From positions 1 to 64,000 of the forward strand of contig JAEPNO010000010.1 of the NCBI GenBank assembly GCA_017643365.1: a DNA stretch of 64,000 nucleotides. Reading direction: 5' to 3'. Under the pieces are notes generated by a model. That model did no database searches, had not been told where the DNA came from, and worked only from the letters and a program-made list of their open reading frames with translations. The DNA is from Balneolaceae bacterium. Its GTDB lineage: Bacteria; Bacteroidota; Rhodothermia; Balneolales; Balneolaceae. The position numbers were made by a program, and so were the translations under genes. This document shows, in pieces, positions 6,218 through 54,274 of the stretch (positions are counted from its first letter, which is position 1; each line of letters starts with the position of its first letter).

Positions 6218-6250
6218 AATTAGGAATTAGGAATAGGAGAATTAGGAATA
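6218..6250. repeat. AATTAGG heptamer-type tandem repeat
   Basis: Four imperfect units (AATTAGG, AATTAGG, AATAGGAG, AATTAGG) lie in tandem upstream of the dehydrogenase gene and downstream of umuC. They are followed directly by a second 7-bp repeat of different sequence. Confidence 0.65.
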
Positions 6251-6255
6251 ATATT

Positions 6256-6283
6256 GTTCAATGTTCAATGTTCAATGTTCAAT
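6256..6283. repeat. GTTCAAT heptamer x4, overlapping the umuC stop
   Basis: Four perfect copies of GTTCAAT run through the 3' end of umuC, whose TGA (minus strand, 6279-6281) lies in the last copy. The array may have formed the present end of the gene. Copy-number change here would alter only non-coding DNA beyond the stop. Confidence 0.8.
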
Positions 6284-7610
6284 CTCCCGCTTTCACCACC
6301 ATCAATTCGTCCCAGCGCGTAGTGTATCGTTTACTCAAGTAGTTCTGGTTCATCAACCACTTATTTCTGTGATCGATTTCTTTGTGGAGACCTGTTGCTG
6401 CAAAAGCCGCGTGATTCCGTCCGAATTTGGCATTAATCTGATCCAAACATTCCATGAGTCGATGCTGTTTTTGGGTGTACATCTCAGGATCGAACAAATC
6501 CATCTGTACCTCGGTTTGTGGGATGATTCCGGTTAACATTACCGATGCCTTTTTGTATTTGCGTCCGGGTTCGTACACTTTCTCGGCAAGTTTTTTAGCA
6601 ACTTGAATCATCGTGGGCGTATGCGCTGTGGGGACTTGCAACGGGCAATAAGCACTGAATTTATACTTTCCGCGAATGTTATCGTATTTATCACCTATCA
6701 GTTGAATTTGTATACAGGACGCCACCGAATCCTGAGCTCTCAGCTTCTCGGTAGCTCGGGTTGTAAAAGTGGCCAACGCTTCCTGAATGCTTTCCAAATC
6801 GTACAGCGGCTTACCAAACATCCGCGACGATAAAATTCCTTTCCTTGAATCCCGACCGACACTCAATCCCGAACAGGATTTCCCGTTCAATTCCAACACG
6901 GTACGTAAGCCGGTAACTGCCATTTGTTTGCGCACCCACTTTTTATTTCCGATGGATCGCTTGAGCTCCAACGCATTGGTGATACCAAACCGATTTAAAC
7001 GAATGGTTAAGCCCTGACCGATTCCCCAGATTTTATTTACGGGAAAGTCTGCGAGGAGTGCATCTTGATTCTTGGCCGAAGTGAAATCAAAAACACCATT
7101 GTATTCGGGATTCTTCTTTGCGATGTGATTCGCCACTTTTGCCAACGTTTTTGTGGATGCAATCCCCACCGAAACCGGCAATCCCGTCCATTTCAAAATA
7201 GTCTCTCGAATCATTTTTCCATATTCCACCAAATCCGGAAATACATTGGTGGATAATTCCGCAAAGGCTTCATCAATGCTGTACACTTCGATGTCGTGGG
7301 TTAAATAGCGCAGGGTTTCCATCACTCGGTGACTCATATCCCCATACAGCGCATAATTGGAAGACCGAACCACCATTCCATTTTCTCTAAAATGATTTCG
7401 GTACTTAAACTCGGGCGCTCCCATCTCAACACCAACGTCTTTCGCTTCTTCCGACCGAGCAATTACGCATCCATCATTATTCGACAATATCGCAATCGGT
7501 TTACCGATTAACCGTGGATCAAACACCCGCTCGCACGACGCATAGAAATTATTGCAATCGATCATGGCGTAGGCGGTTGTGGGCTTTGTATGCGGTTCTG
7601 GGTTATTCAC
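6279..7610 (-). CDS. umuC: Y-family translesion DNA polymerase, UmuC subunit
   Basis: Polymerase of the UmuD'2C (Pol V) type that copies past DNA lesions. The 443-residue protein has the Y-family motifs: AMIDCNNFYASCERVFDP (catalytic Asp, residues about 15-32), VLSNNDGCVIARSEEAK and YSIDEAFAEL (second Asp and Glu). A little-finger domain and UmuC-type C-terminus follow. All catalytic acids seen are intact. The start is a GTG at 7610; an ATG lies 15 codons in. umuD is upstream on the same strand, but an inserted four-helix-bundle gene and octamer repeats separate the two. Its stop lies inside a GTTCAAT repeat. Confidence 0.93.
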   Translation of the reverse strand: MNNPEPHTKPTTAYAMIDCNNFYASCERVFDPRLIGKPIAILSNNDGCVIARSEEAKDVGVEMGAPEFKYRNHFRENGMVVRSSNYALYGDMSHRVMETLRYLTHDIEVYSIDEAFAELSTNVFPDLVEYGKMIRETILKWTGLPVSVGIASTKTLAKVANHIAKKNPEYNGVFDFTSAKNQDALLADFPVNKIWGIGQGLTIRLNRFGITNALELKRSIGNKKWVRKQMAVTGLRTVLELNGKSCSGLSVGRDSRKGILSSRMFGKPLYDLESIQEALATFTTRATEKLRAQDSVASCIQIQLIGDKYDNIRGKYKFSAYCPLQVPTAHTPTMIQVAKKLAEKVYEPGRKYKKASVMLTGIIPQTEVQMDLFDPEMYTQKQHRLMECLDQINAKFGRNHAAFAATGLHKEIDHRNKWLMNQNYLSKRYTTRWDELMVVKAGD

Positions 7611-7638
7611 TTTTTCTTGCTATGATTCATTTTGGTAA

Positions 7639-7718
7639 GGGGCAAAGGGGCAGAGGAGCAAAGGGACAAAGTGACGGAGTTACAGAGGGGCAAAGTGACA
7701 AAGGCACATAGGCACAAA
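7639..7718. repeat. 8-bp tandem repeat array (GGNRCAAA-like), 10 units
   Basis: Ten consecutive degenerate octamers (ggggcaaa, ggggcaga, ggagcaaa, gggacaaa, gtgacgga, gttacaga, ggggcaaa, gtgacaaa, ggcacata, ggcacaaa) lie between umuC and the four-helix-bundle gene. A shorter array of the same octamer lies on the other side of that gene in inverted orientation, so the two arms could pair in DNA or RNA. Confidence 0.85.
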
Positions 7719-7723
7719 GATTT

Positions 7724-8131
7724 TTATGGATCAAGTTTTCGGATTAGTGAGCTTAACATTCGTTCTATTTCTCTGGAGTCTTCGTAAAGAATATCGAACC
7801 ATTCTTTCTTCATGTATTCGAGATTTAGTGCGATCTCAACCTGGGTTTGAACTTCATACAACGAGCCAAGTGCAATATTCAAGAATCGAATGTAGTCACC
7901 TGTCGATCGTCTTCCATAGCCTTCAGCAATGTTTGAGGGAATCGAAATGCATGCTCTGCGAAGTTGACTCGTTAGCGAAAACTTTTCGCTGTCAGGGAAA
8001 TAGTTTGTAGCGGTATATACGCGATTAACAAAAGACATCCCTTTTTGCCACACCTTTAAATCCCGGAATGTCTTAATCCCATAGTCAGAAAAATTTTGTG
8101 CTTTTTTAGATTGAGTTATTGGTGTTTCCAT
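7724..8131 (-). CDS. Four-helix-bundle protein (23S rRNA intervening-sequence family)
   Basis: A 135-residue protein of the S23/IVP family, named after ORFs inside 23S rRNA intervening sequences; its biochemical role is unknown. Family features are visible: FRDLKVWQKGMSFVNRVYTAT near the start, then FSLTSQLRRACISIPSNIAEGYGR, and a FLNIALGSLYEVQTQVEIA segment, each within a predicted long helix. It sits between umuD and umuC on the same strand, but nothing ties it to mutagenesis. The inverted octamer repeats around it suggest it arrived as a cassette. Confidence 0.88.
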   Translation of the reverse strand: METPITQSKKAQNFSDYGIKTFRDLKVWQKGMSFVNRVYTATNYFPDSEKFSLTSQLRRACISIPSNIAEGYGRRSTGDYIRFLNIALGSLYEVQTQVEIALNLEYMKKEWFDILYEDSREIERMLSSLIRKLDP

Positions 8132-8158
8132 TTTTTCTAACGTTTAGATTTAGTTTAA

Positions 8159-8198
8159 AAAAGTACTAAGTGCCTTTGTGCCTTTGATCCTCTGCTCC
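8159..8198. repeat. Inverted octamer array, 4-5 units
   Basis: Read on the minus strand the units are ggagcaga, ggatcaaa, ggcacaaa, ggcactta and a weak gtactttt. They match the 7639-7718 array in inverse orientation; for instance aaaggcaca is present in both arms. The array starts just downstream of the umuD stop (8200-8202). Confidence 0.8.
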
Positions 8199-8199
8199 T

Positions 8200-8631
8200 T
8201 TAAGTAAACCGATGAATCAAATGCGTAACCACTCCCCAAATCATCCATTGGGTGTTATGCTCAACGGGGATGGGCGGTTGTGAAGCATCATCCGTAACCA
8301 GAAACCTGCGATTTCCTTGTTTAATGAGTCGTCGGATCAACACCTCATCGTCGATGGTGACAACCAAGATGGATCCGTTTGTTGCGTTCAGCGATCGGTC
8401 CACCACTAGAATGTCTTTGTCGTGGATGCCCGAAGCCTTCATCGCATCGCCTTCAACTCTCACATAAAATGTGGAAGTGGGTCGGCGAACAATCAGCTCT
8501 TCCAAATTCAGTGAGCGTTCGAGATGATCACCCGCCGGAGATGGAAACCCCGTCTCAATCCGCCTCGAAAGCTGTAATAAATCGTTGTCCTCGCGTTCTT
8601 TTTGAACCTGATAAGATGTCCAGTTGCTCAT
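8200..8631 (-). CDS. umuD: UmuD homologue lacking both catalytic residues
   Basis: Aligns with Pol V subunit UmuD (S24/LexA-like peptidase) over almost its full length of 143 residues. The cleavage region reads ETGFPSPAGDHLER (27-28 is Thr-Gly; Cys-Gly in E. coli). The active-site block reads VRVEGDAMKASGI where active homologues have GDSM, so the nucleophilic serine is Ala63 (codon 8443-8445, GCG). The general-base lysine of the VKKL block is Arg100 in DEVLIRRL (codon 8332-8334). By family knowledge this protein should not self-cleave. The fold residues are otherwise well kept and the frame is intact, so it may act as a permanently full-length partner of UmuC. Confidence 0.88.
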   Translation of the reverse strand: MSNWTSYQVQKEREDNDLLQLSRRIETGFPSPAGDHLERSLNLEELIVRRPTSTFYVRVEGDAMKASGIHDKDILVVDRSLNATNGSILVVTIDDEVLIRRLIKQGNRRFLVTDDASQPPIPVEHNTQWMIWGVVTHLIHRFT

Positions 8632-52500: not shown

Positions 52501-52971
52501 ATGCAGTCAGTACGTTTAGACGACATCGATAAAGAAATCCTGAGAATCCTTCAAAAAGAGGGGAGGATTTCAAATAAAGATCTAGCAGAACGAATTAATC
52601 TGACAACCACTCCAACTTTGGAACGGGTTCGACGCCTGGAACGGGAAGGAGTGATCAGCGGATACGAAGCAAAAGTGAATCCTGAAACAATAGATTTGAG
52701 GCTCAACGCTTTTGTAACAATCACCTTAAGTGCGCACCGGCTTCGGTTGCTGGATGAATTTACTAGCGCAGTGAAGGCAATCCCGGAAATATTGGCTTGT
52801 TACAATACTACCGGAGATGGTGATTTTCTGCTGCATATCGTTGCTAAAGATGTGGAAGACTACGAGAGCATCATGCGAACAAAGCTGGCTACATTGCCCG
52901 ATGTTCAACGCATGTACACAAGCATTGTATTAAATGTGATAAAAGAACAAACAAACATCCCAATACCATGA
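52501..52971 (+). CDS. Lrp/AsnC family transcriptional regulator
   Basis: A 156-residue feast/famine regulator. The helix-turn-helix (DIDKEILRILQKEGRISNKD, LAERINLTTTPTLERVRRLE) is followed by a RAM ligand domain (NAFVTITLSAHRL, ILACYNTTGDGDFLLHIVAK). It overlaps the methionine gamma-lyase-like gene by 4 bp and so probably controls it in answer to an amino acid. Members of this type often sense methionine or branched-chain amino acids. Confidence 0.93.
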   Translation: MQSVRLDDIDKEILRILQKEGRISNKDLAERINLTTTPTLERVRRLEREGVISGYEAKVNPETIDLRLNAFVTITLSAHRLRLLDEFTSAVKAIPEILACYNTTGDGDFLLHIVAKDVEDYESIMRTKLATLPDVQRMYTSIVLNVIKEQTNIPIP

Positions 52972-54194
52972 TTTCATCCAAAGAAAAGAACACCACCATC
53001 GCAACAGCCGCAGTTCATGCCGGCGAACGCGATTTTGATCAATACGGATCTCATATCAATCCAATTTATCAAACGTCTACTTTTGTTTTCAGGGATGTAG
53101 ATGCAGGTGCCAAAGCTTTTCAAGGTGAAGAGGATGGCGCATCGCACATTTATTCTCGGCTTGGAAATCCAACCGTAGAAAAATTAGAGCGAGCCATTGC
53201 AGAGTTAGAAGCTTACGGTTTGCCTGATCAGAATGCTTACACCGGAATGGCTTTTGGCAGTGGGATGGCTGCCATCACCACCGGAATTATTGCAGCAGCT
53301 CGGGGCGGACACATCATAGCGCAAGATGCATTGTACGGATGTACCAGCCAGTTTTTGGATTTAGAAGTCCCTGAGCTTGGAATGTCGCGTTCTTTTGTTG
53401 ATGTGAGCGACTTATTCCTCTTGGAAATGGAATTGAAAAAGAATCCGGGAACTAAGTTGGTTTATATCGAGAGTATTGCAAACCCAACGATGACGGTGGC
53501 TGATTTACCAAATATTGCGGCTATGGCACATCAACATGGGGCGCTTTTGATGGTGGATAACACTTTTGCCACACCATATCACATGCAACCGCTTAAACAT
53601 GGCGCTGATATTATTGCGCATTCTACCACAAAATATTTGGGTGGACATGGTTCTGTGATTGGCGGAGCCTTAGTTCTAAAGTCTGAGTTAATCGAAGAAA
53701 CGAGTTTACATAAATTCCGCAAGAATCTAGGTGGAATTGCTGCTCCAATGGATGCATGGCTCCTCAGCAATGGGGTAAAGACTTTGCCACTTCGAATGCA
53801 AAAACATGCCGAAAATGGATTAAAAGTAGCCCAGTTTTTGGAAATGCATCCGGCTGTTGATCAAGTTTGGTACCCGGGATTGAAATCACATCCACAATAT
53901 GATTTAGCGAACGAAATCATGACAAATGGTTTCGGAGGCGTGCTTTCTTTTGAGCTGAAAGGCGGTTTTGAAGCCGGAAAATCTCTTATGAATTCAGTTA
54001 AACTTTGCACTTTGGCAGTTAGTCTCGGAACGGTTGATACGCTGATTCAACACCCTGCTTCAATGACACATTCGGTAATGGATCCTGAGCTTCGATTAGA
54101 AGCCGGAATAACTGACGGTATGGTTCGTCTTGCTGTTGGCATCGAAGACGCCGAAGACATTATCCACGATCTCGAGCAAGCGCTCGAAGGATAA
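52968..54194 (+). CDS. Cys/Met metabolism PLP enzyme (methionine gamma-lyase-like)
   Basis: A 408-residue trans-sulfuration family enzyme. Motifs are YGSHINPIYQTSTFVF, YSRLGNPTVEKLERAIAELE, GMAAITTGIIAAARGGHI, LLMVDNTFATPYHMQP and IIAHSTTKYLGGHGSVIGGA, where the lysine near 221 binds PLP. The family includes methionine gamma-lyase and cystathionine gamma-lyase/synthase. Coupling to an Lrp regulator and no neighbouring metB/C partner favour the gamma-lyase role; the substrate is inferred. Confidence 0.88.
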   Translation: MISSKEKNTTIATAAVHAGERDFDQYGSHINPIYQTSTFVFRDVDAGAKAFQGEEDGASHIYSRLGNPTVEKLERAIAELEAYGLPDQNAYTGMAFGSGMAAITTGIIAAARGGHIIAQDALYGCTSQFLDLEVPELGMSRSFVDVSDLFLLEMELKKNPGTKLVYIESIANPTMTVADLPNIAAMAHQHGALLMVDNTFATPYHMQPLKHGADIIAHSTTKYLGGHGSVIGGALVLKSELIEETSLHKFRKNLGGIAAPMDAWLLSNGVKTLPLRMQKHAENGLKVAQFLEMHPAVDQVWYPGLKSHPQYDLANEIMTNGFGGVLSFELKGGFEAGKSLMNSVKLCTLAVSLGTVDTLIQHPASMTHSVMDPELRLEAGITDGMVRLAVGIEDAEDIIHDLEQALEG

Positions 54195-54199
54195 ATGTT

Positions 54200-54256
54200 A
54201 AGTGTTAAATGCTAAATTAGAAATTGAATCCATTTAAAAATTAGCATTTAACACTT
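54200..54256. terminator. Perfect 16-bp inverted repeat between convergent genes
   Basis: AAGTGTTAAATGCTAA (54200-54215) and TTAGCATTTAACACTT (54241-54256) are perfect inverted repeats with a 25-nt loop, between the gamma-lyase gene and the TPM gene. Each arm is built of a 7-bp period (GTTAAGT, GTTAAAT, GCTAAAT), so it may be a repeat serving as a bidirectional terminator. Confidence 0.65.
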
Positions 54257-54274
54257 TTAATTCCGCTTAGCGGA

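Follow-up and report, generated by a model that had tools for sequence, protein, structure and literature searches.

Which described systems come closest to a small gene lying between inverted arrays of short repeats? Intervening sequences (IVSs) of 23S rRNA with an S23/IVP reading frame, as in Coxiella, Leptospira and alphaproteobacteria, encode the same PF05635 protein as the gene considered here and have complementary ends; their excision by RNase III is documented, and the published account describes the stem, not periodic units (PMC4990558). That account also cites Lin 2006 for a Xanthomonas homologue whose solved structure is a pentamer of four-helix bundles (PMC4990558). In REP/RAYT systems, the REPs are described as fixed palindromes of 20-40 bp and the RAYT as a nuclease-type transposase (PMC3733652, PMC2817692, PMC8266576). 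Dispersed heptamers have been reported as GGGAATC in Xanthomonas and GGGGA(C/T)T in Nostoc, for the most part in intergenic DNA, close to stop codons and between co-directional genes (Rehm 2015; PMC4692102), and as TAACTGA in Beggiatoaceae, again mostly intergenic (MacGregor 2015; PMC4679880). Each Xanthomonas genome holds 70-75 inverted (convergent) heptamer pairs, whose function was called unknown, and slippage of the polymerase has been suggested for the heptamers over-represented in several bacteria (PMC4692102). Keyword searches of PMC4692102 and PMC4679880 gave no hits for four-helix, S23 or intervening-sequence genes, and among open-licence papers we found none that links IVP to short-unit arrays.

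The window analysed here, the whole stretch of 64,000 nucleotides at the start of contig JAEPNO010000010.1 of a Balneolaceae genome (G000), holds such a gene in a umuDC operon on the minus strand. A umuD-like gene (8200-8631), recognised by profile matches to Peptidase_S24, ends in a stop codon (8200-8202) that abuts the cassette. The 5' arm (8166-8201) consists of about 4.5 octamers, GCAGAGGA TCAAAGGC ACAAAGGC in operon sense; it is followed by the IVP gene (7724-8131, 135 amino acids) and by a 3' arm (7637-7719) of about ten octamers, CTTTGTGC CTATGTGC CTTTGTCA CTTTGCCC in operon sense, which are inverted relative to the 5' arm. Two programs agree on a period of 8 for the 3' array, with about 10.4 units resembling AAAGGGGC or CAAAGTGA. 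The cassette coordinates and the inverted octamers of the preliminary description proved right to a few bases. Downstream of the cassette, umuC (6279-7610; IMS, IMS_C and DUF4113) is assigned a GTG start at 7610; the conserved protein begins at an in-frame ATG about 45 nt further in, and the conserved UmuC N-terminus suggests a start downstream of the GTG. Between the 3' array and umuC, a seven-codon reading frame (MNHSKKK, 7606-7630) ends in a TGA overlapping the assigned GTG.

The identity of the protein is clear: it scores 139.2 bits against PF05635 (curated cut-off 33.8, E=7e-41) and 134 bits against TIGR02436, 'four helix bundle protein' (cut-off 24, E=2e-39), and has homologues with solved structures in 2GSC and 2RLD. 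No other gene between the arms has a family match, and no Y1 HUH transposase was found there. An Rfam search of six loci, comprising the umuDC cassette and other IVP-related loci, returned no known structured RNA. A phage origin was considered and rejected, with zero matches in 50,697 phage records.

Was the cassette inserted into the operon, or is it native to it? Among some 30 umuC loci of the family, the two genes of most umuDC operons are 6-84 nt apart, with no IVP, in agreement with the earlier claim of an insertion; the comparison of orthologues, which had been named as its possible refutation, found the gene mostly absent. The umuDC operons of three species, namely this genome, G010 and G034, carry the cassette, and those of G024, G005 and G013 do not. 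The octamers of the three carriers are unlike one another (CAAAGGCA/CAAAGTGA, CAGAGTTA and CAGAGGCA), from which independent insertions had been suspected; this was rejected, as the tree joins the three IVPs in one supported clade, which indicates a single insertion that either goes back to a common ancestor or was transferred between these lineages. Different units in what seems to be one and the same insertion suggest that they drift inside an inherited cassette. The G010 IVP is a fast-evolving copy on a long branch (0.74), which would fit decay.

The complementarity of the arms exceeds that expected by chance. The umuDC locus has an arm score of 23; shuffling its flanks gives a mean of 8.9, and the 46 other genes of the window, taken as controls, have a mean of 8.8 and a maximum of 13. 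The best ungapped pair of 29 nt is 83% complementary, its halves being spaced 454 nt apart. For the excised arms, a fold of -45.8 kcal/mol is predicted (z=-7.8), and in the minimum-energy structure of the whole 606-nt segment the arms are paired (z=-3.0), so that the folding anticipated for the umuD-umuC transcript does occur in silico.

Is this arrangement peculiar to umuDC? The genome contains 11 PF05635 genes, almost all of them flanked by short-period repeats with a different unit at each. The 162 IVP loci of our sample belong to this genome (11), the family (85), the phylum (19), other species of many phyla (37) and plasmids (10); the sample is non-random, consisting mostly of best-scoring IVP matches, and includes some syntenic orthologues. 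At fixed thresholds, matched inverted arms are present at 104 and 7- or 8-nt periodicity at 107 of the 162 loci. One or both features mark 132 of them, compared with 8 of 810 dinucleotide-shuffled flanks (1%), and about one locus in five has no array at the thresholds used. A general lack of such flanks at other IVP genes had been named beforehand as a refutation; most of these genes do have them. Periodicity of the flanks is essentially confined to lags of 7, 8 and their multiples. Wherever both arms are arrays, the period is shared, with 13 pairs of 7/7, 9 of 8/8 and none mixed, and G exceeds C on the 5' side in 88% of arms. Coding of stop codons by the repeat units was considered and rejected, since 56 of 90 units hold a stop codon where 53.4 are expected. 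The heptads can be numerous: at L239 (G010:C5:94150-94900), some two dozen copies of CTGGTTG precede the IVP gene, compared with about two at L007, the corresponding gene of this genome.

The arrays are moreover matched to each other and to the protein they enclose. Within a locus, the left and right arms reach a mean score of 15.6, compared with 9.8 in direct orientation, 8.8 in shuffles and 9.1 between loci; they also match each other slightly better than they match the arms of other subfamily members (16.4 vs 14.6, p=0.0008). Among non-syntenic cassettes, array likeness remains at background until the IVPs are at least 55% identical, and then rises from 3% to 37-61% of pairs, an association reached by none of 500 Mantel permutations (0/500). 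Octamers of the CAAAGGCA type also surround IVPs of Planctomycetota, Myxococcota and Flavobacteriaceae, and in carriers from Sedimentisphaerales, Lutibacter and a deltaproteobacterium the IVP is 62-66% identical to that of umuDC. At one site within a single genus, both the IVP and the arrays of G052 are unlike those of G028 and G017, with nearly identical neighbour genes. Because the arms match each other, track the IVP and are swapped jointly with it, our conclusion is that gene and arrays move together as one cassette, from site to site and from phylum to phylum. Such movement is rare or ancient, given that no near-identical cassettes were found at different sites among the sampled loci, where the best non-syntenic identity stays below 80%; the divergence between filled and empty sites is too great for any target-site duplication to be read. 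These observations also bear on the simplest alternative, in which the arrays are ordinary slippage repeats of intergenic DNA and the IVP genes lie there by chance. The slippage proposed for heptamers in several bacteria and the existence of gene-less arrays would agree with it, but it accounts neither for arms that match in inverted orientation over the direct one, nor for the control genes of the window, none of which has matched arms above 13, nor for arrays that track the protein at unrelated sites, and we regard it as highly improbable.

As to the sites themselves, the outer edges of the cassettes mostly fall between -12 and +8 nt from the upstream stop codon, with the other end just before the downstream start; neighbour genes were called by ORF length, and a few calls are wrong for that reason, the downstream gene of L005 being one. 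The host genes are of mixed function and include cysD/cysN, fixC/fixX, radC/argS, recA, cas6/cas4 and ribonucleotide reductase, the subunits of which flank a Nostoc IVP cassette. An association with DNA repair (umuDC, recA, recN, radC) was dropped for the reason that host genes are so mixed. The cas6/cas4 case, a heptad-array cassette on the Anabaena sp. 90 plasmid pANA02 (L246), lies in a type I-D CRISPR operon. At L002, the array extends to the downstream gene (approximately 1842-1960); the native ATG, present in G024, has been lost, and the closest in-frame start of that gene is now a CTG or an internal TTG.

Could the cassette have been domesticated, with the IVP and the arrays adjusting umuC expression, for instance through autoregulation of translation or through changes of unit number by slippage? 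The siting in operons, immediately between one gene's stop and the next gene's start codon, would suit such a role, as would the unit number, which is not constant between orthologous cassettes, and the purifying selection on the IVP (median dN/dS 0.09 in 26 pairs). Against it stand the functional mixture of the host genes, the orthologous umuDC operons that mostly do without the cassette, the rapid evolution of the G010 umuDC copy and, at a site other than umuDC, the G026 copy, in which the IVP is internally deleted between perfect 27-nt arms. Regulation of this kind thus seems improbable to us, and the umuDC cassette is probably a tolerated passenger.

A more serious alternative is an element acting at the RNA level, with arms kept for pairing in the transcript, which would loop the cassette out, expose it to RNase III, or both, and with an IVP that binds the RNA stem. 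It draws on the strong predicted pairing of the arms and on the precedent of RNase III excision in rRNA. The protein Avd, which is homologous to IVP, works with RNA. Furthermore, an IVS in rRNA has the same arms: on plasmid AZO_p2 of Azospirillum lipoferum 4B, an IVP cassette with inverted GAGGACG/GATGACA heptads lies inside a 23S rRNA gene, in or near what we take, from the E. coli sequence, to be helix 45, a known IVS site. The likeness to rRNA intervening sequences that had been drawn for umuDC is substantiated by this case. Orientation speaks on both sides, since the 90 cassettes that lie between co-directional genes divide into 66 sense and 24 antisense (p=1e-5), a bias expected of a transcript-level element that nevertheless leaves about a quarter of operon-internal cassettes antisense, many of which likewise adjoin the upstream gene's stop codon. 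Selected RNA pairing should, in addition, give an excess of G-U over A-C mismatches; on the transcript strand, the arms have 104 G-U and 96 A-C (p=0.62). Nor do dispersed octamer arrays conform, as for most of them no inverted partner lies within 400 nt. We therefore consider an RNA-level element unlikely, and saw no sign that the arms are maintained by RNA folding.

Those dispersed arrays are common in this genome. The umuDC octamer pattern, three times CARAGNNA, has 85 matches in about 27 places, compared with 0 for the reversed control, and only two of these places hold an IVP. Of the places we read, about half are arrays at most 18 nt from a stop codon on the same strand. Some arrays sit in repeated intergenic units: at L285, L290, L294, L297, L298 and L300 (G000 contigs C5, C19, C24, C50, C51 and C10), gene-poor stretches contain intergenic units of about 60-340 bp, repeated at 82-97% identity beside octamer arrays; these stretches look like an array of small gene cassettes, perhaps an integron-like one. 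Orthologous sites that have no IVP fall into two kinds, some relatives holding arrays that start at the native stop codon or close to it and others being plainly empty; gene-less arrays are seen at the L004 and L009 sites of G010, and at cysD-cysN and fixC-fixX in G024 and G034. The window itself offers examples with other units. A gene-less inverted heptad hairpin (54192-54260, plus strand; TAAATGT TAAGTGT TAAATGC TAAATTA and complement), its unit unlike that of the umuDC cassette, begins with the TAA stop of a cystathionine-gamma-synthase-like ORF (52968-54194) and lies between convergent genes. Two direct heptad arrays, four times TTGAACA and then TTCCTAA-type units in minus sense, start at the umuC stop (6218-6283), whose TGA falls inside the first heptad; they have no inverted partner. 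A TTGATAA array of about 3.7 copies occupies positions 111-146.

Taken together, our analysis of the sequences favours, with some confidence, a reading in which a widespread mobile cassette, array-IVP-inverted array, has one of its copies in umuDC and encodes a protein that would recognise its own arrays as DNA. Both arrays would be the ends of the cassette. Since there is no G-U excess and both orientations are used, we infer that these ends are recognised by the IVP at the DNA level; the protein, oligomeric and usually basic (median pI 8.7), may bind the arrays of its own cassette, to judge from the way in which unit and subfamily vary together. Slippage and copying between the arms would keep the arrays alike, and such homogenisation could explain why the unit drifts between loci while identity from arm to arm persists. 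Gene-less arrays at stop codons would be single-ended or non-autonomous derivatives. The cassette itself contains neither a transposase nor a reverse transcriptase gene, and no match to the reverse transcriptase profile RVT_1 was found in this genome; cutting and joining are for this reason presumably performed by host or other enzymes, and we know of no recombinase linked to IVP. In the transcript, the predicted pairing of the arms could draw umuD and umuC nearer together, and might make insertions tolerable, above all in rRNA.

If this holds, it describes a mobile element with no recognisable nuclease, whose ends change in sequence yet stay matched, and the function of IVP becomes a direct question: does the protein bind the unit of its own locus, and not that of another? 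IVP genes annotated in operons such as umuDC, cysDN, fixCX and cas would then probably be passengers. A single anatomy would likewise cover three things described apart, namely IVP genes with no assigned function, rRNA intervening sequences and dispersed heptameric repeats. Tentatively, and with less assurance than for umuDC, we extend this to a bacteria-wide mobile class having as its ends locus-specific arrays of 7 or 8 nt recognised by the self-encoded IVP, in which IVP-bearing rRNA IVSs might be the rRNA-resident members and the heptamers of Xanthomonas, Nostoc and Beggiatoaceae gene-less derivatives.

How, then, does the cassette compare with the known systems? Avd of diversity-generating retroelements belongs to the same fold superfamily, but it is accompanied by a reverse transcriptase, a profile unmatched in this genome, and the umuDC IVP stays below the cut-offs of both bAvd (28 bits, cut-off 40, E=3e-6) and Avd (28.7, cut-off 80). 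REP/RAYT systems resemble it in having a short gene between inverted repeats, repeats that follow the protein subfamily and dispersed gene-less copies near stop codons, as the octamer has at about half of the places that we read; unlike them, the cassette has variable arrays of short units as its ends and encodes a four-helix bundle. The heptameric repeats share with IVP arrays the period of 7 and the mostly intergenic siting, and a Nostoc plasmid carries an IVP gene between AGTAGGG-type heptads; linking these repeats to IVP is a new proposal, resting on IVP loci outside Xanthomonas. With the 23S rRNA IVSs, finally, the umuDC cassette shares ends capable of forming a stem, differing in its location in a protein operon and in its octamers, where the Azospirillum IVS has inverted heptads. 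We thus take the umuDC feature to be an IVS-like element, with a credible case for more than that: the cassette type looks widespread and largely unrecognised, with the 'intervening sequences' of rRNA as one special case.
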